Shown in pieces: positions 24,535 through 37,826 of a DNA stretch of 64,000 bases. The position numbers and the translations under genes are program-made. The stretch is from positions 62,001-126,000 of the forward strand of contig NZ_JABFDI010000008.1 in the NCBI RefSeq assembly GCF_013403915.1, read 5' to 3'. How positions within the stretch are numbered: the stretch's first letter is position 1; each line of letters starts with the position of its first letter. This DNA is from Winogradskyella pacifica (GTDB lineage: Bacteria; Bacteroidota; Bacteroidia; Flavobacteriales; Flavobacteriaceae). The notes below the pieces were generated by a model. The model was not told where the DNA came from. It saw only the letters and a program-made list of their open reading frames with translations, and ran no database searches.

Positions 24535-27500
24535 TTATTTCATATTAACGATTACTTTTTTAGTGATCCATTGGTTGTTTTGATTCTCTATTTTCACAAT
24601 ATAAGTTCCGGTTGATACTTTAGAAATGTCAATACCATTACTTAATTCTTGTTGGTCTTTGTTGTGATATTGGTTAATGGTCTGTCCTAACATATTAATG
24701 ATACTGACAGATTTTGCTCCATTGACAAGTCCATTAATAAAGAGTTTTCGTTCTTTATTATTTACATATACCTGAACATCGTTTAATTGTGACTCTGAAA
24801 CATTAAGTGCATATTCATTTTGGAATACAATATCAAATCGATCTTCAAACAAACCTGGCTCACTCACAAAGCTGTAATCTGAATTTCTAATATCTGTATA
24901 ACTATTTTCATAATTATCTCTCAAATAAACGGCTTGAGAAGTATCAAAATCTTCAAAATCTGTTGCCGAAATAGTATATATCTGTTGTTCTGACGATTTA
25001 TAGATTAATGGCACTACTTTATCAGAAGCTATAGCTGAATACGCTTGTGTAACCATTGAACTGCCTTCAAACAACGTATAAAAATCATTTGCTTGCACAT
25101 CCGTCATTTTTCCATCATAACTATAATCAAAACCTTCTGAAGTAAAATCACTAAAACCAATAACCATTTCTCTACTAAATCCGTTATCTGCTTCAAATTT
25201 CAAATGAAGTTTTTGCATTATATCTTCAATCGTTTCTGAATCAGCGTTGTCTTCTGTTTCGGTATTGGCTGTTCTAAAAAAGACACTCTCCCCATTGGAT
25301 TGTTTCTTATAGATACGTTGACCGTTGTTAAATTCAATATGACCATCATTTATGACTTCTGTGAAAAAAGCCTGACCAACACTAATATACTGAGTGGGCG
25401 TTAGTGTTCCTTCTTGAGAACCATTGTTTGAGCTACTTAAACCGTCAAATTGATAAGCTCTTATTTTTGCCATTTTATTGATTATAGCATAACCACCTTC
25501 ATATTCACTTATGTAATGTGAGTTACCAGCCCATTGCTCCCACAGATATAATGTACCATCAATTACATCTTCATTATCATCAATAAATTGATGCGCATCT
25601 ATAGCAGAAGGATAAGGATTACCTACTAATGTCGTTGTAAGCGTTACATCTGGTTCACTCTCGTTAGCAGCGTCTCCATCAACGTCATCTGCGGCTATTA
25701 AAATAGTTCCGTTATTTGGTTTTCCTTCAAATATATAGACTTGTGTGGTTCCTGCATTACCAGTTCCTTTATGAATATAACCTACTCCAGGATTTAATTG
25801 AGTCGTTGGTGAGTAACTTTCCCAATCGTAATACGTAACCCCGTTTAAGAAGGTGTACATCCAACGCGTACTGATTTTCCCTGTTTCATTGTATGCTGAT
25901 GTAAATTCAACGGCATTAGCATTTCCTTCTTTTAATGTATTAATACCAAAAGTAGAATTGTTAACATTATTAAAGCTTGTATTATTATCTAAAAGTGTTG
26001 TTGCTCGTGCTGCTCCAATTGGAGAAGAAAAATAATTATATCGAAATGAATTGGATGTTCCTGTTTGGCGTCTTAATATTTTACCTGTTGCAGAGGTTAC
26101 TAAATCACTATTAACTCCTTGTATTAATTGAGAATCGTTTTTTAAGTCTAAGACTCCATTAAGTTCTAAATACCACGTATTATCAATTTCATTTTCTCCA
26201 TTAATTGTAAGTGTTTTATTAGCATCTACTATAAGTCCAAGTCTTGTATGAGAAGTTGCAGAGGTTATATCATTTTTGATATGTACAATGGACCAGTCTT
26301 TTTCAAATATCTCGTCTGAAACATCCCAAACATCTCCATGTAACCATGATTCTGGACTAGACCAATCTCCATCTGCACTAGTGACGTAAGGCAAAGGTGC
26401 TGTTTGCGGCTTTACCGTATTAATATTATGCATTTTTAAATCGTGGGAATTTGCTGATTCATCTAACAATTCTGATTTTAAAATATTAGACATAGGATAA
26501 TAAGCCTTAAGATTACCCCAAGCTACACGCTCTAAAGTTTGTGAATCCTGAATATTCTTAGGTATAATATTCCCCTTTACAATACCTTCATTATTTTCAA
26601 TCTCTTGACACATCATTTGTTGTATTTGTTGTGCAGAAAGAGCATCTTCAAAAATTCTTACTTCATCTATAGTTCCATTAAAATGGGCAGATCCAGATGG
26701 ACTTGTATTTGTTGGATAACGACCAATTGTAAATGGTCTACTTGAATAAATGTGATCAGTACCATTATAATTTTTGGTAAGTAGCGTTGAATTCAAATTA
26801 GCATCCGTTTCTGTATTTAACAGCTCTCCATTAAGATATACTTTTAAAGAGTTTGTTGCGGAATCAAAAACACCAGTGACATGATACCAAACATCATTTT
26901 CCATTTTTCTGTTATCCGTAGGCAGTTGTTCTACATTAAGACTACTACTTGGATAGTTACTAGAAGCAGTGACTTGTTCCTGAGTATAAACAACAAATGC
27001 AGGTTTTCTTCCTTTCGTTATAGTCAATCGCATGTTTTCCTGACCTGCAATACTATAAACAGAACTTAAATTCCCTGTTGCAGTATTAGCTTTAATTTTT
27101 ACCCAAGCCATAATGGTTCCTTCATTCCAATTTTCAATAAAAGAAGATGTGTCTAGGTAATCATCTAAACCATCAAAATCGACTGATCCTGAAGAAAAAT
27201 AAACATCAATATCATCTCTATAATCTAAATCTCCTCCTAGAGATAAATCGCCATCAGTATCCGGTAAAACAGATAAGTCTAATGGGTTCTCAATATCTTC
27301 ATTAATGTCTAAAACAGCATCATTAATATTCGTTGTTTCAAAGTTATCGTCTAAACCATCTCCGTCTGCATCATTTCCAGATAGCGTATTAGCCATTCCA
27401 TTTTCTTGAATGTCTGGAGTTCCATCATTATCACTATCTAAATCTATATAATCTGGGATATTATCACCATCAGTATCCTCTAAGTTTGTGAAACCAGATC

Positions 27501-30500
27501 CGTAATTATCATCTACACCATCGTTGTTTAAATCTACCATTGTTGCTCCACTACCACTCGGAGGAATATAACCACCTGTTGATTGCGCCTCTACATTATC
27601 TGGTATACCGTCATTATCTGAATCTATATCTAAATAATCTTGAATCCCATCATTATCTGTATCTGTACAAATATTTACTGACAATACAGAAAAAGGAATT
27701 AATCTTTTAGACATAGTTGCGCTAGAATAAGATACCGTTAAAGACTCTAATCCAGTTCTCTCATAAAATAATATAGTAATTGGGTAGATACCCGGAGTTA
27801 ATGCAATAGTTCCAGATCTTTCTTGTGCAGCATGATCCCCATCATTATTAACAATCTCATTGCCATCAATAAACAATTTAGAACCATCATCTGACCTTGT
27901 ATAAAACCTATATGTTTCTTCTGTGCTAATAGTAATAAAACCAGTATATCGAATGGCAAAACTATCGTGATCTCCAGGTGTAATCATAGTCCAAAGGGCA
28001 TCTACATCGAAATTAGACACAGTACCTGTTGCTGTAGCTCCAGTAGTAGGAATATTATCTACACTTGGTGAAACATTTATATCATAAAATTCATAAGACA
28101 AACCCTCGGTAATTTCAGTACATATAACACCTTCATTTACATTTAGTATACCATCATTATCACTATCTAAATCTGTAGTATCGCCTATACCATCACCATC
28201 CATGTCTGCATCTAAAGTAAGAGTAGCACTATTTTCGATTTGGATACACAAATTAGCTGTATGTGTTACTACTAAAGTGTACACACTACCATCTAATCCG
28301 GTAACATCCGAAATATTTAAACTAGCCGATGTGGCACCTGAATAAACACCTCCATTGGTTAGGTCTGTGCCATTTAATTGCCATTGATAGTTTAAGGCCG
28401 TACTTACATCAGTAGCGCTATTTGAATAATTTGGCACACCTTCTGTTGTAAATGTCGTTGTACTTTTCGCTGTTGCACTAGTTATAGTAAAACTTGTAGC
28501 TCCACCTATTACAACTAACTGATCGACCAAAGCTGTAGCATCTACTGTAGCTTCTGTTGCTGTAGTCACATTTGCAGTTGTACCTGTATATGCCGTTGAT
28601 ACACCCATAACTAAACCACTAGCATTAATCCCTGTACCATCTACGTGTCCGTCTGCATCGCTATCTGCATGGCCAGCCTCTATAACATCATCACAACCAT
28701 CACCATCACTATCTGTATTCTGAAAGTCGAAATTACCGTCACCAGAAGTGTCTATTGGTGTCGTAGCTTCAGCAGTGTCATCAGCGCCATTATTGTTATT
28801 ATCATTAAACGAAGCATCGTTGCTATCTATTACTCCATCGTTGTTGGTATCTAAACTTCCGTTACCTGCCTCATCAACATCGTAGATACCATCGTTGTCT
28901 GAATCTAAATCCAAATAATCTGGAATTCCATCATAATCTGTATCTGTACAAGTGTTTTCTGATAAAACAGAAAAAGGAATTAAGGTTTTAGAAATAGTTG
29001 CGCTAGAATATGACATACTTAAGAACTCACCTCCAGTTCTTTCAAAAAACAGAATCGTGATTGGATAAATGCCTTGGTTAAGGGCTACAGTTCCAGAAGT
29101 TTCTAGCATATCATGTAAACCATCGTTATCAACGACCTCGTTTCCGTCAATAAATAATTTAGAACCATCATCTGAACTTGTATAAAATGTATATGTCTCG
29201 GTTGTATTAATCTTAATAAAACCGCTATATCTAATGGCAAAATTCTCGTGATCACCTGGAGTAATAGAACCCCAAAGTGCATCTACATCAATTTCAGATA
29301 CACTCCCTGTTGCTGTGGCGCCTGTAGTTGGAATACCATCTACACTTGGTGAGACATTTATATCATAAAACTCATACGTCAGACTATTACTAATTTCATC
29401 GCACACAGAACCTTCATTTACATCTAGTATACCATCATTATCACTATCTATATCTGCATTGTCTGCAATTCCATCACCATCCATATCTGGCGCATCTAAT
29501 TCTCCACCAATATTAATGAGGTAATTTTCTACTTCTCCATTGCTATAATTATAATCACAAGACGTAAAATTTATACTAGTACCACCTCTAACACCAATAC
29601 GCACATTAGAAAGCGCTTCATCTGTAGTGCTTGGTAGCGTTATATTAACAGGAACGTTTACAATCTTAGTTCCACTTACGTTGTTGGTATCCTGAAATGC
29701 AAATACAAAACGTTCACCTGAATCTTCAAAATCATCATCCAAGCTTTCATTGAGGTTAATCCAAATAACCACTGTGTTTTCGTTGGTATTCCATCCATTT
29801 AATGTCACACTAATGGTGCCTTCAAGAGCCTGACCAATAGGAACATTATCTTCAGAAAAAGAAGAATAATTAGTAAAACTACCTGTTGTTCCTGTACTGC
29901 TATTCTCTATTCCCGCAAAAGAAACGTTAGAAACAAATAAAATATTATCGCTTTGTATATTTTCTGTTTCACAAAAATTAGGCTCACTATCTCCTGGATT
30001 ACCTTCATTATCTGACACAAAGAAAACCTCATAATCTTCAACTTCTCCTGCACTGTAATTATACTCACATGATGTAAAACTTGTATCGTTTCCAGATCTT
30101 AAACCAACACGCATTCTTGCAATACCAGCCTGTGCGCTTTCCGGAATAAGGATACTGATAGGAACTGTTACATTTTTTAGTCCGCCTACATTAGTGTTAT
30201 CTTGAAACGTAAATAAGAACTGCTCACCACTATCATCAAAATCATCATCGATTTCATTAAAATTAAACCACACAGCAACAGTATGAGTATTGGTATTCCA
30301 CCCATTAAGAGTTACTGTAATATCTCCTGTAACTGTGTCTCCAGCATTAATAGACGTTGGGGAAACGTCTGAATAATAAGTATACGAACCTTGACTACCT
30401 GAACTACTATTGTCTATTGTTCCAATATTTACATTAGATATATAGAAAGTCCAACCTCCATTCACCCCAATATTATCTGGGGTACAATATTGCGCATTAA

Positions 30501-30558
30501 CATTAAAAGTTATAAAAATTATTATAAATAATAGTCTGAAGTTATTTTTCACCATCAT
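24535..30558 (-). CDS. Giant T9SS-secreted multidomain adhesin-like protein (GEVED, PA14, TSP3, LamG)
   Basis: 2007 residues. Signal peptide 1-22 (NVNA|Q). Two GEVED-type domains follow, ending with SAGEVEDY (~169-176) and SNGEVENY (~339-346). Two PA14-like domains follow, starting [13 protein letters not shown] near residues ~396 and ~818 and almost identical to each other. Calcium-binding thrombospondin type 3 repeats (DSDNDGI) link them, and an Ig-like segment lies before the second copy. A LamG/concanavalin-like domain (~1120-1320, [18 protein letters not shown]) precedes a ~600-residue beta-rich region. The last ~85 residues are a T9SS type A sorting domain ([28 protein letters not shown]). 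It is probably secreted or surface-attached and may bind carbohydrate; ligand unknown. Confidence 0.92.
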
Positions 30559-30708: not shown

Positions 30709-32067
30709 TTACACCAGAAATCCAACCAAATCTTCAATTTTAGAAATCAATTGAATCTTAATAACCGTGTTTTTTAAAGCTATTTTATTGTATTTAGATA
30801 CAAAGATGGTTGTAAAACCTAATTTTTCGGCTTCAAGAATACGCTGTTCTACGCGTTGAACAGGTCTTATTTCTCCAGAAAGTCCTACTTCTGCAGCAAA
30901 ACAATAGGTACTTGGCAAAGCCACATCTTCATTGGAAGATAAAATGGATGCGACAACGGCTAAATCTATAGCAGGATCATCAACAGTAATACCACCTGTA
31001 ATATTTAAGAAGACATCTTTTGCGCCTAAACGGAAACCTGCACGTTTTTCTAAAACCGCTAATAGCATGTTGAGACGTTTGGCATTAAATCCTGTAGCAG
31101 ATCGTTGTGGGGTTCCGTAAACCGCTGTACTCACCAAGGCTTGTACTTCGATCATCAGAGGTCGTAAACCCTCTAAAGTAGCTGCGACTGCGTTACCAGA
31201 AAGTTCTTCGTCTTTTTCTGAAATCAGTATCTCGGATGGATTGGAAACTTCTCGTAATCCTGAACCTTGCATTTCGTAAATACCAAGTTCATTTGTAGAA
31301 CCGAATCGGTTTTTGTTGGCGCGTAGAATTCTAAATACATGATTTCGGTCACCTTCAAATTGAAGTACCGTATCTACCATATGCTCTAGAATTTTTGGAC
31401 CTGCAATGTGCCCATCTTTTGTGATATGACCTATTAATAAAACAGGTGTTGCTGTTTCTTTGGCAAACTTTATCAGTTCTGTCGTACACTCCTTTATTTG
31501 AGAAATACTTCCTGCAGACGACTCTATATAATCGCTATGTAAAGTTTGGATAGAGTCTATAACCACAATATCTGGCTCTAAAGCTTCGATTTGCTTAAAA
31601 ATATTTTGAGTTTTGGTTTCCGTAAGAATATAGCAATTACTGCTATTTGGGTTAATACGCTCGGCCCGCATTTTTATTTGTTTCTGACTTTCTTCACCCG
31701 AAACATAAAGCGTTTTGTATTGCAGCTTTAAGGCTATTTGAAGTAAAAGTGTACTCTTTCCTATTCCTGGTTCACCACCGAGTAATGTTAGAGAACCATG
31801 AACCATTCCTCCACCAAGTACACGATTAAATTCGCCATCTTGCATATCTAAACGTGCTTCTTGCGAGGTATCAATATCATTAATTAATAATGGTTTTGAA
31901 ACCCGTTTTGAAGTTGTCGTTGGTGTTTTCCAATTGCTCTTTTCTGGTTTTTGAATGACTTCTTCTGCAATGGTATTCCATTCTTTACAAGAGGTACATT
32001 GCCCTTGCCATTTGGCATATTGACTACCACAATTCTGACAAAAAAAAGTTGTTTTTACCTTAGCCAT
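30709..32067 (-). CDS. radA: DNA repair protein RadA/Sms
   Basis: 452 residues, full length. A RecA-like helicase that promotes branch migration in recombinational repair. N-terminal C4 zinc finger FFCQNCGSQYAKWQGQCTSC, Walker A GGEPGIGKSTLLL, Walker B region IVVIDSIQT, the RadA-specific KNRFG motif (ANKNRFGSTNELGIYEM), and a C-terminal Lon-protease-like domain (SVAG-type segment replaced by VVASILSSNEDVAL, AAEVGLSGEIRPV). It is the last gene of a minus-strand run starting at panC; the 204 bases before it hold no convincing gene. Confidence 0.96.
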   Translation of the reverse strand: MAKVKTTFFCQNCGSQYAKWQGQCTSCKEWNTIAEEVIQKPEKSNWKTPTTTSKRVSKPLLINDIDTSQEARLDMQDGEFNRVLGGGMVHGSLTLLGGEPGIGKSTLLLQIALKLQYKTLYVSGEESQKQIKMRAERINPNSSNCYILTETKTQNIFKQIEALEPDIVVIDSIQTLHSDYIESSAGSISQIKECTTELIKFAKETATPVLLIGHITKDGHIAGPKILEHMVDTVLQFEGDRNHVFRILRANKNRFGSTNELGIYEMQGSGLREVSNPSEILISEKDEELSGNAVAATLEGLRPLMIEVQALVSTAVYGTPQRSATGFNAKRLNMLLAVLEKRAGFRLGAKDVFLNITGGITVDDPAIDLAVVASILSSNEDVALPSTYCFAAEVGLSGEIRPVQRVEQRILEAEKLGFTTIFVSKYNKIALKNTVIKIQLISKIEDLVGFLV

Positions 32068-32271: not shown

Positions 32272-33459
32272 CTAGTTCTCTTCATCATCGTCGTCATTAT
32301 CATCAATCTCTTCATCTAAATCCGCTACAGTAAGTTCATCAATCTTAGAAAAGATAAAATCTCTATTAATATGACTTACATCGTTTAAGGTTAATGCAGA
32401 TTCATATAATTTTTTTGCTTTCTTTGTTTTACCAAGTTTTTCTGCAGATTGTGCTAAATAATACGTCCCCATTAAAGATTCTGGATGAAGTTTATTCGCT
32501 AACGCGCCTAATTTACCAAGTGATTTTAAATCTTCACGTTGTTCTGCAATTTTTATTACTTTTTCTATTTCAGCTTCACTAATTTCTTTTTTAATACCAA
32601 AAAGCTTTTCTATCCTTTTATAGCGATCCGTTAAGTAATTGTCTAAAGTCCCCTCATAAGGCAATACTTTTTCTTCAAGCTCTTTTTCTCTTAGTGGATT
32701 GTAGATATCGAAAATCTTTTCAAAAGATCTAGCCAAAGCACTTGTTACTAACGTATAGTGATTTTCATCTTTAAAATCATCAAAATAATAGGTTACGTTC
32801 TGGTTATCTAGTGCTTTAATTTGTGCGTTTGTAGACAATATACTTTCTCGAAGTTGTGGTATATCCTTTTCTGAAGTTGCTAAATAATAGAAAATATCAT
32901 CTTTGAAAAGTGCTAAACGTTTTGAAATAAAGTTATTTAACGACCCAATAAAATCTGGACTAATACAAACGTAAGCCTGAAAATCGAGCACCTCTTTAAA
33001 CAAATAAGAGTTAATTAAATTACCCATGTTATCATGACCAACAGCAACTCTAAACTTACTGGTGTTGTATTTTTTATCTATGTAAGGTAATAATTCGTCT
33101 GAAACAAAATCATGAAATCTAAGTCCCGATTCTGTTGGCAACCCTGTAGTCGGATCGTAATAACCATCATAAAAACGGTTTTCCCCTTGCATTATACCAA
33201 CAACTATAGAGCCTGGCATATTATCGAAATACGTTTGAAAGTCTATTTGACCAACTACGGGTTCAAATAGATAATCCCCATCGAATACAATTATTACTGG
33301 ATACTTTTCATCAGCATTTGCATCATAATTCTTTGGTAGTTTAACTTTTAATTTACGCACGGCGTTAAGTTTAGCCGAGGATATTTCCTGATAGGTGGTC
33401 TGCGCAAATGAAGAAGCGCAAATTAGACATGCAAGAACTAAAAAAATAGTCTTTTTCAT
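32272..33459 (-). CDS. Esterase-fold protein (PF00756-like) with Asp at the nucleophile position and TPR-like C-terminus, paralogue 1
   Basis: 395 residues from ATG 33459 (MKKTIFLVLACLICASSFAQ, a clean signal peptide); an ATG 33 bases upstream adds a non-signal-like leader and was not used. The alpha/beta-hydrolase core shows IIVFDGDYLFEP, the elbow AVGHDNMGNLIN, then CISPDF and DENHYTLV. Enterochelin-esterase-like enzymes have GHSxG at the elbow; here Asp143 replaces Ser and the Gly is shifted, while the His (234) is kept. Residues ~300-370 form TPR-like helices, and the tail is acidic. The downstream half of a tandem pair with the next entry, 76 bases apart. Catalytic activity is doubtful or altered. 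Confidence 0.8.
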   Translation of the reverse strand: MKKTIFLVLACLICASSFAQTTYQEISSAKLNAVRKLKVKLPKNYDANADEKYPVIIVFDGDYLFEPVVGQIDFQTYFDNMPGSIVVGIMQGENRFYDGYYDPTTGLPTESGLRFHDFVSDELLPYIDKKYNTSKFRVAVGHDNMGNLINSYLFKEVLDFQAYVCISPDFIGSLNNFISKRLALFKDDIFYYLATSEKDIPQLRESILSTNAQIKALDNQNVTYYFDDFKDENHYTLVTSALARSFEKIFDIYNPLREKELEEKVLPYEGTLDNYLTDRYKRIEKLFGIKKEISEAEIEKVIKIAEQREDLKSLGKLGALANKLHPESLMGTYYLAQSAEKLGKTKKAKKLYESALTLNDVSHINRDFIFSKIDELTVADLDEEIDDNDDDDEEN

Positions 33460-33535
33460 GATAAGTAGGTTTAGATTTGGGATACCAAACATACTAAATT
33501 ATCGCTATGTTGTCAATTTTTTTCGATGAAATGCA

Positions 33536-34681
33536 TCAATCTTTCATCTTATCCTGAATTTCATACATCTTATCGAGCATCATTTCCTTATCTACAGATT
33601 GGGATGGCTCTAATAATAAACCCGATTTATAACGCTGTAAAGCTCTTTTTAAATCGCCTTCTTTTTCATTATACATTCCTGAATAATAAGCACTTAACAT
33701 TGATTTCGGAAATTCTTTATTCACTAGCTTAGCTAATTTTTCTAAAGAATCTAAATCATCCTTTTTATTGCTAGCTGCTGCAATAGCTCTAATATCATTT
33801 TCAATTAATTTTTTTTCAAAACCATAGAAATGCTCTATGTCTTTATACTTTTTAATCAAATAATCGTAAGGGGATCCTTCAAAAGTTAACACTTTCTCTG
33901 AATATTCTTTCGCGTTAATAGGTTTAAAAAGGGCAAAAATCTGATTTAAAGCTTTTGGAATTCCTCTTCCAACTAAAGAATAGTGATTAGCGTCTTCAAA
34001 ATCATCAAATTTATAAAGAAGATTTTCATTTTCAATAGTAGAAAGAATAGCATCATTCTCTAAAATAGAACTTCTTATCGCTTTTATATCTGCATCTGCG
34101 GTGGCCATGTAATAAAATATTTCTTGTTGCAGAATAGATAAGCGTTGTTTTAATCGATGCATCATTTCTGGCGCAAAATCCGGACTTAAAGCTACATAAG
34201 CCCTAAATAGAGGCTCATCCTTAAACAGGTAATAATTTATAAAATTAGCACCTAAATCGTGCCCAACAATAATTCTAAAATTAGAGGCATTATAATTATC
34301 TTCAATAAATGGCAATAATTCGGCTGCCATAAATTCATAAAATGCAGCTCCATTATGCGAAGGAAAAAAGGACTCATTATCATAATAAAAATCATCTGTT
34401 CTTGTAGATGCTTGATTAATTCCTACAACAATACAATCTGGTATATCCTCCCAATAGGATTGATAATCAATATTACCAGCAATTGGCTCAAATAAATAAT
34501 CGCCATCTAAAACGATAATTAGAGGATAAGAACGTTTTTCTTCAGGGTTATAATTTCTAGGTAATTGAATTTTTAATTCACGTTCACCTTCAAGCTTATA
34601 AGAATCAATGGTTTTATATACTGCCTGAGAATGAATATTTAAACCTATAAAAAGAGCTAGAACTAAGTAAAAATTCTTCAT
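33536..34681 (-). CDS. Esterase-fold protein (PF00756-like) with GHDLG elbow and TPR-like C-terminus, paralogue 2
   Basis: 381 residues from ATG 34681 (MKNFYLVLALFIGLNIHSQA, signal peptide); ATG 34690 is an equally possible start giving three more residues. Same architecture as paralogue 1: IIVLDGDYLFEP, elbow IVGHDLGANFINYYLFK, ALSPDF, and EDANHYSLV carrying His233. The nucleophile position is Asp142, giving GHDLG, which resembles the Asp nucleophile elbow of haloalkane dehalogenases and epoxide hydrolases rather than a Ser esterase. The C-terminal ~110 residues are TPR-like. Secreted or periplasmic. It follows the flippase-like gene after 43 bases. Function unknown. Confidence 0.8.
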   Translation of the reverse strand: MKNFYLVLALFIGLNIHSQAVYKTIDSYKLEGERELKIQLPRNYNPEEKRSYPLIIVLDGDYLFEPIAGNIDYQSYWEDIPDCIVVGINQASTRTDDFYYDNESFFPSHNGAAFYEFMAAELLPFIEDNYNASNFRIIVGHDLGANFINYYLFKDEPLFRAYVALSPDFAPEMMHRLKQRLSILQQEIFYYMATADADIKAIRSSILENDAILSTIENENLLYKFDDFEDANHYSLVGRGIPKALNQIFALFKPINAKEYSEKVLTFEGSPYDYLIKKYKDIEHFYGFEKKLIENDIRAIAAASNKKDDLDSLEKLAKLVNKEFPKSMLSAYYSGMYNEKEGDLKRALQRYKSGLLLEPSQSVDKEMMLDKMYEIQDKMKD

Positions 34682-34724
34682 ATTATGCATAAATTAAAAA
34701 TTTAAAGTAAGGTAAAAAATATTT

Positions 34725-36904: not shown

Positions 36905-36968
36905 TGTCGTAACAAAAGTTTAACGCATGCAAACATAATATAATACTAGCAATCTGCCCAAATTTTTG

Positions 36969-36976: not shown

Positions 36977-37013
36977 CATGTTTTTTACTATTAATTTCAA
37001 AAGCAGCAGATTT

Positions 37014-37826
37014 ATGAAAGATAAACGAATATTGTATGTGTCCTCGGAAGTTGTTCCATATTTACCAGAAACTGAAATTTCTTCAATGTCATTTGAAGCA
37101 CCAAGAATGGTAAACAAACAAGGAGGTCAGATTAGAATATTTATGCCTCGTTTTGGAAATATTAATGAAAGAAGACATCAATTACATGAAGTTATTAGAC
37201 TTTCTGGTATCAATTTAGTCATTAATGATTTAGATATGCCTTTGATTATTAAGGTCGCTTCAATTCCTAAAGAACGTATCCAAGTTTACTTTATAGATAA
37301 TGAAGATTATTTTAAGAGAAAAGCAACATTAACAGACGAAGACGGCAAACTATTTTCAGATAACGACGAACGTGCGATCTTCTTTGCTAAAGGAGTTATA
37401 GAAACTGTTAAAAAATTGAATTGGGCTCCTGATATTATTCATGTTAACGGTTGGTTAGCGTCATTACTTCCATTGTACTTAAAAGAGTTTTACAAAACGG
37501 AACCTTTATTTACCGAAAGTAAAATAGTAACCTCTGTATACAATCAAAGCTTTGAAGGCACGTTAGATAAAGACATGATCTCTAAAGTGAATTTTGATGG
37601 ATTGGATGCGGAAACAACAAAATTATTAAATCAGCCAGATTACATTAATTTAATGAAAATTGCAATCGATAATTCTGATGCCATTATTAGAGGTTCTGAA
37701 GAATTACCAAAAGAATTAGATACGTATTTAAATGATTTAACAAAACCGGTATTAGATTATTACTCTATTGAAGAATTTGCAGATCCTTACACAGAGTTTT
37801 ACAACAATACTGTATTAAACAGTTAA
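37014..37826 (+). CDS. Half-length glycogen/starch-synthase-like protein (GT5 N-terminal domain only)
   Basis: 270 residues from ATG 37014; the upstream ATG 36978 probably precedes the transcription start. It aligns by eye with the N-terminal Rossmann domain of glycogen synthase: RILYVSSEVVPY, QIRIFMPRFG, and APDIIHVNGWLASLLPLYLK. Full enzymes are ~480 residues with a second domain that binds ADP-glucose; that half is absent. The N-terminal KTGGL loop is also missing (PETEI, residues 18-22). It is therefore probably not a glycogen synthase. It heads a plus-strand set with a DUF4270 lipoprotein and glmS, a conserved flavobacterial arrangement that suggests an envelope role (inference). Confidence 0.8.
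   Translation: MKDKRILYVSSEVVPYLPETEISSMSFEAPRMVNKQGGQIRIFMPRFGNINERRHQLHEVIRLSGINLVINDLDMPLIIKVASIPKERIQVYFIDNEDYFKRKATLTDEDGKLFSDNDERAIFFAKGVIETVKKLNWAPDIIHVNGWLASLLPLYLKEFYKTEPLFTESKIVTSVYNQSFEGTLDKDMISKVNFDGLDAETTKLLNQPDYINLMKIAIDNSDAIIRGSEELPKELDTYLNDLTKPVLDYYSIEEFADPYTEFYNNTVLNS

Follow-up and report, generated by a model that had tools for sequence, protein, structure and literature searches.

Secreted esterase-fold proteins of Winogradskyella pacifica belong to a conserved flavobacterial family that lacks the nucleophilic serine

Two adjacent genes of Winogradskyella pacifica encode secreted proteins of the esterase fold in which the place of the nucleophilic Ser is taken by Asp, raising the question of whether this Asp is a new catalytic nucleophile or whether the proteins have abandoned covalent catalysis. 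The genes lie on the minus strand of the window, by which we mean the whole 64,000-nucleotide stretch that was analyzed (contig NZ_JABFDI010000008.1, positions 62,001 to 126,000). Gene B (33536..34681), the first copy after a gene for a flippase-like protein, encodes 381 aa counted from MKN, whose signal-peptide Met is at 34681, and gene A (32272..33459), its tandem paralogue, encodes 395 aa from MKK. The ORFs extend over 32272-33492 for A and 33536-34690 for B; the true start of A is probably the Met at 33459, where its homologues begin. Residues are numbered from the MKN Met in B and from the MKK Met in A. The two proteins are 41% identical, and an acidic C-terminal end is present in A. The closest named record to B, with 96% identity, came from W. 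psychrotolerans RS-3, a member of the Flavobacteriaceae.

Both proteins matched PF00756 above the Pfam cut-off of 22 bits (A, 4.3e-13 and 50.1 bits; B, 2.1e-12 and 47.8 bits), and at E 0.001 the domain was matched by 51/51 members of the family alignment (A1). At the nucleophile elbow, where an active PF00756 esterase has Ser, A bears D143 in GHDNM (codon 33031..33033) and B bears D142 in GHDLG (codon 34256..34258). The catalytic His of PF00756 and a candidate for its acid are both present. The triad His position is occupied by H234 of A (codon 32758..32760) and H233 of B (codon 33983..33985), with C-terminal His motifs NHYTLV and NHYSLV, respectively, and the acid position by D199 of A (codon 32863..32865) and D198 of B (codon 34088..34090), all six codons being on the minus strand. 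The triad acid of this fold usually stands right after a strand; D198 directly follows strand 188-197 of B and was aligned with a Glu of BES, and on this placement and alignment D198 and D199 are the putative triad acids. The two genes form a tandem pair, and their products belong to a single family of secreted proteins with the alpha/beta-hydrolase fold. ORFs, motifs and Pfam scores agree with the initial annotation, which had described two secreted PF00756-like paralogues with Asp at the elbow (residues 142 and 143, as we also count them for B and A) and the C-terminal His retained.

The initial annotation had called for a structural check of the Asp position, and we modeled both proteins with AlphaFold2 from alignments of the window and related-locus sequences (B, mean pLDDT 94.4 and pTM 0.88; A, 91.6 and 0.85). 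The models placed the Asp exactly at the nucleophile elbow in both proteins, D143 of A between strand 133-142 and helix 144-154, and D142 of B between strand 132-141 and helix 143-153. Because strand and helix flank the Asp in this way in both models, the candidate explanation that another Ser occupies the elbow was ruled out.

We compared the models with known structures by Foldseek and by a Z-scored search, considering the best 50 matches. The top match of both was 4w9r_B (A, Z 40.8, rmsd 2.2; B, Z 39.9, rmsd 3.8; 357 residues aligned in each case). Next, at Z about 19-28, came siderophore esterases (BES, 2QM0; the IroE-like 3GFF; EstA/EstB; Fes; PfeE) and feruloyl esterases, which have the same fold. 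Siderophore and feruloyl esterases of PF00756 are Ser enzymes, unlike the family described here, and structure-entry titles name the mutants S157A of PfeE and S148A, E211Q and H267N of EstB. The initial annotation had likened GHDLG to the GHDWG of haloalkane dehalogenases and epoxide hydrolases; this likeness proved to be local; after 4W9R, the closest structures are the Ser esterases. Neither haloalkane dehalogenases and epoxide hydrolases nor the dioxygenase HOD appeared among the best 50 structure matches listed, which is not evidence against kinship, and no sequence relation to any of them was seen among the matches from sequence and profile searches.

The best match, 4W9R (Coch_1243 of Capnocytophaga ochracea; CASP11 target T0852), belongs to the same family, with a profile E of 1.8e-78, and has the same two-domain architecture: the esterase-fold domain and helical tail match it over their full length in sequence, profile and structure. 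It differs from B in having Glu for Asp at the elbow, Val for the His, Ser for H141, Asn for S166, and Glu at the acid position. The structure has been solved since 2014. The passages on it in PMC5030136 describe the protein, on the basis of Pfam, as a putative esterase and give no function. Among the papers listed by our search of open-licence PubMed Central, none dealt with the function of the family, and 4W9R or Coch_1243 was mentioned only in that article.

We then examined the elbow residue across the family. Among 310 distinct members pooled, it was D in 205, G in 49, N in 30, T in 13, E in 8, K in 2, and A, R and S in one each, and the C-terminal His was present in 283; the sole Ser-bearing member lacks the His. 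The single Ala is the only hydrophobic residue seen at the elbow in the members read. In 160 sequences from loci L001-L120, the counts were D 104, G 44, N 9, E 2 and A 1, with His in 160/160; in 160 sequences from L121-L200, they were D 133, N 21, G 3, E 2 and K 1. Within the latter set, the 78 A copies had D 57, N 19, E 1 and K 1 (the E and K coming from short third copies), and the 82 B copies had D 76, G 3, N 2 and E 1. The weakest-scoring members, which in most cases lack the His, contributed T, R, K and the one S. These counts cover ORFs of at least 300 aa with matches above 150 bits in L001-L120, ORFs of at least 240 aa in L121-L200, and divergent members no weaker than E 1e-40, with identical sequences left out; the first two sets share species, and pooling dropped only rows identical over the compared region. 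The divergent rows were fitted into an alignment that was kept fixed, and individual residues in them may be out of place. With Ser absent from the elbow in 309/310 members, the statement in the initial annotation that the Asp is not a random mutation holds.

Its suggestion that A and B use Asp chemistry fared differently. According to this explanation, those lineages of the family that carry Asp, at least, with A and B among them, would be Asp-nucleophile hydrolases, and PF00756 would have evolved the chemistry of dehalogenases or epoxide hydrolases independently. In haloalkane dehalogenases and epoxide hydrolases the Asp is a conserved nucleophile, and GHD at the elbow is common to those enzymes and to A and B. 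Asp is also the commonest elbow state, with His and acid kept, and prevails among both A and B copies. However, orthologues at the same locus bear G, N, E or A in its place, Asn stands there in nearly a quarter of the A copies, and at least 15 changes between D and non-D occurred within the family. Furthermore, haloalkane dehalogenases have Trp after the nucleophile (GHDW), whereas A has N and B has L at that position and Trp was found there in 0/92 family rows. An Asp nucleophile would need to be conserved, and the elbow varies; thus, a new catalytic role for the Asp is very unlikely. The initial annotation had itself named free variability of the Asp among homologues as the observation that would speak against its idea, and we discarded Asp-nucleophile chemistry on the variability seen across the 310 members and in the trees.

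Several observations concern unusual copies. In L044, L046, L047, L048, L196 and L200, the full-length genes are accompanied by additional copies, shorter or broken, that are situated between them or next to them, and odd elbows occur in extra or short copies, namely GYE (L046 and L200) and GYK (L196). In His-bearing rows with Gly at the elbow, the next residue is acidic in 14/23, versus 3/60 of the His-bearing rows with an acidic elbow, so that the acid may perhaps have moved by one place in Gly-elbow members. As a compensation for the lost Asp, this shift was set aside, the pattern being confounded by clade.

To place the loss of Ser in the history of the family, we used 30 Ser-bearing relatives as an outgroup. 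Of these, 20 came from Flavobacteriaceae genomes and include tailed proteins of around 400 aa, and the remaining 10 came from different families within the order. All 30 matched PF00756 and had both Ser and His, and the Ser-bearing flavobacterial relatives share with the family the LDG, R..D and elbow frames as well as the His. A careful tree was built from 92 family rows and the 30 Ser rows, omitting the elbow column and rows at least 72% identical to a kept one. In this tree, Ser/non-Ser required one change, the elbow changed at least 19 times within the family (this being also the tree that gave the D/non-D count above), and the His was lost at least three times. In a quick tree of 122 family and 30 Ser rows, which took in more divergent members, there were at least 24 elbow changes within the family and at least four losses of His; one change again split the family from the outgroup, and Ser/non-Ser needed two owing to the single late Ser. 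Because one Ser/non-Ser change separates family and outgroup, a single loss of the nucleophilic Ser at the root of the family is most likely, and the Asp seen in the window is one of many residues to have followed it. N149, just after the elbow, is a marker of the family: it is present in 115/122 family rows (92/94 with His and 23/28 without) and in 0/30 Ser relatives.

The helical tail was already part of the picture given by the initial annotation, which had offered non-catalytic binding proteins with TPR tails as its other option. By Pfam, the tail of A resembles TPR weakly (19.0 bits, cut-off 27), and TPR_2 was matched by 2/51 members of the family alignment; in the models the tail is all-helical, and the family profile (A3) matches designed TPR proteins. 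TPR_2 was also matched by 12/30 Ser-bearing relatives; proteins that have kept the Ser thus share the two-domain layout, and the tail could not be used to argue for a new role.

The active-site positions are constrained in a manner that the initial annotation had not seen: in the main clade the His and the acid are near-invariant while the nucleophile varies. Among the 94 His-bearing rows of this clade, the His is present in 94/94 and Asp at the D198 position in 90/94 (Asp or Glu in 92/94), and the nucleophile column of the same rows has six states. The numbers of changes in these rows were 0 for the His, D59 and D97, 3 for D198, 4 for S166, 5 for H141, 15 for the elbow and 37 for the residue after it, with a median of 24 per site over 241 sites. 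The elbow rate was 0.62 versus a domain median of 0.88 (percentile 44); the elbow is neither invariant nor the freest site, and is not wholly free. The His is absent in 28/122 family rows, of which H141 is kept in 1, S166 in 3, D198 in 3, and Asp or Glu at D198 in 8. Five His-less rows (L217, L260, L261, L270 and L274) are still at the syntenic locus, so the gene has been kept without the His. The joint loss of His, H141, S166 and D198 suggests that these residues form one functional site; it is incomplete and represents three to four independent events, which leaves statistics on joint loss without power.

These patterns bear on a second explanation, that the family catalyzes without a nucleophile. 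Here the His-Asp pair would serve as the general base toward either water or a bound substrate, and the elbow would only shape the site, as in HOD, a dioxygenase with the alpha/beta-hydrolase fold. In that enzyme, as passages of PMC10548524 describe, a His-Asp pair deprotonates the substrate and the nucleophile is not essential, being Ala in some homologues. The resemblance to HOD-type cofactor-independent dioxygenases, which oxygenate heteroaromatic substrates and keep His-Asp with a dispensable nucleophile, is one of working and not of membership: in the main clade the pair is likewise kept while the nucleophile column varies, and 28/122 rows lack the His. The near-invariance of the pair in rows with six elbow states, and the fact that H141, S166 and D198 mostly vanish where the His is lost, as if they were one functional unit, would fit such catalysis. 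On the other hand, the gene persists in lineages that have lost the pair, the joint loss comprises only three to four independent events, and an acid is still there in 8/28 of the rows concerned. We regard nucleophile-free catalysis as possible but unlikely. A more specific form, in which the protein would be a core periplasmic enzyme of the Flavobacteriaceae with its triad reduced to a His-Asp base, an elbow tolerant of many residues and never a nucleophile, and in which this unit was later abandoned in several lineages that keep the protein as a scaffold, is rather doubtful.

We next considered how widely the family occurs and where its genes lie. The family was found in 250/299 genomes of the GTDB family Flavobacteriaceae (query B, 1e-30 or better), and in 224/249 when only genomes with a completeness of at least 90% and a contamination of no more than 5% are counted. 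In a profile search of the order, 40/148 genomes matched at 1e-20, matches outside the Flavobacteriaceae were only 4e-45 or weaker, and Ser is present in each of the ten proteins that were read from these more distant genomes. Loci were read from the 250 genomes in sets of 30, then 60 better-scoring, then 28 mostly weakest-scoring ones (out of 31 picks, the other three having been selected as non-carriers), the middle of the range being under-sampled.

In the window, the genes upstream of B are, all on the minus strand, a flippase-like membrane protein (PF03706 / TIGR00374; 34725..35684), panD for aspartate decarboxylase (PF02261; 35689..36039) and panC for pantoate-beta-alanine ligase (PF02569; 36053..36904). 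The downstream neighbor of A, also on the minus strand, encodes an ATPase (30709..32067), which we take from its domains to be radA-like. In 60 loci of single-copy relatives and 80 loci of near relatives, respectively, the flippase-like gene was present in 58/60 and 79/80, panD in 57/60 and 79/80, panC in 58/60 and 79/80, and the radA-like gene in 52/60 and 80/80, where some absences may be ends of contigs or stretches. In most loci read, the family gene lies between panC-panD-flippase-like and radA. The initial annotation had called this linkage unexplained; it is no quirk of one genome, as the locus is conserved across the Flavobacteriaceae. Among the 28 weakest-scoring members, within 1.5 kb on either side, panD, flippase-like gene and radA accompanied the family gene in 7, radA alone in 1, and none of them in 20. 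Two full-length copies were present in 78/80 near-relative loci (L195 and L199 have a single one) and in 0/60 single-copy-relative loci; in this sample, the full tandem is confined to a group around Winogradskyella, Psychroserpens and Gelidibacter.

Other features of the region were also recorded. Divergent from panC, a 282-aa protein on the plus strand (36978-37826), for which the only Pfam match is the starch-synthase catalytic domain PF08323, has counterparts in 77/80 related loci. A 2007-aa secreted protein on the minus strand (24535-30558) has GEVED, PA14 and laminin-G domains and a C-terminal secretion-sorting tail (PF18962). Matches to the promoter pattern of Bacteroidota in the window numbered 12 versus 14.9 expected, which is not above chance; minus-strand matches lie just upstream of A (33486-33516) and panC (36930-36961).

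The conserved neighborhood invites a third explanation, in which the protein would be a partner of the flippase-like neighbor and would control or sense the lipid that is moved, much as the periplasmic AcvB acts together with the Lys-PG synthase LpiA; PMC13197417 reports that AcvB and LpiA share an operon and interact. Such a partnership would suit the near-constant presence of the flippase-like gene at the locus and the 34 bases between the ORFs here, although this tight spacing may be mere operon packing with panC-panD. In seven genomes of one genus (code g147; L206, L207, L208, L210, L213, L214 and L216), panC, panD, the family gene and radA occur together. The flippase-like gene was found in 0/7 of them at E 1e-5, and the family gene still stands beside radA. 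In three further genomes (L218-L220), the family gene is away from the locus and the flippase-like gene is elsewhere. Because some genomes are without the flippase-like gene, this reading is weakened, and we consider it improbable.

On balance, we favor the explanation that the family consists of periplasmic pseudo-esterases, that is, ligand-binding or scaffold proteins of the cell envelope, their periplasmic place being suggested by the predicted signal peptide. The family would descend from Ser esterases of the siderophore or feruloyl type. Its nucleophilic Ser most probably disappeared in a single event at its base, and the residue standing there instead varies, with D, G, N, E and T the main ones observed. 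Judging by the residues, covalent ester cleavage by the protein would be gone. The old pocket (H141, S166, D198 and H233 in B) is kept in most lineages, most likely as a binding site, and the helical TPR-like tail would serve contacts. Also in favor are the retention of the gene in lineages whose pocket is lost, the Glu at the elbow and the Val for His in 4W9R, and the presence of the family in 250/299 genomes. Covalent ester cleavage depends on the Ser. With Ser gone from 309/310 members and the elbow Asp not conserved, the evidence points away from covalent ester cleavage and toward a binding or scaffold role, and non-catalytic proteins with TPR tails, the second option of the initial annotation, fit a variable elbow without Ser better than Asp chemistry does. 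Two findings count against a binding-only role: constrained His, D198, S166 and H141 in the His-bearing rows are also expected of a working active site, and the elbow evolves more slowly than the average site, which is at odds with a wholly free position.

Taken together, these findings do not support a new Asp chemistry; judged from its residues, the family bearing this Asp is a nucleophile-less group of the esterase fold. The family is real, well conserved and probably mislabeled as an esterase. Its gene occurs in the majority of the genomes sampled from a large bacterial family and is filed as a putative esterase despite the loss of Ser at its root; recognition of the protein as nucleophile-free would correct this label. 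It would also make testable what the kept pocket binds and whether the His-Asp pair alone does chemistry, and the lineages that have lost the His and kept the gene would serve as natural controls.
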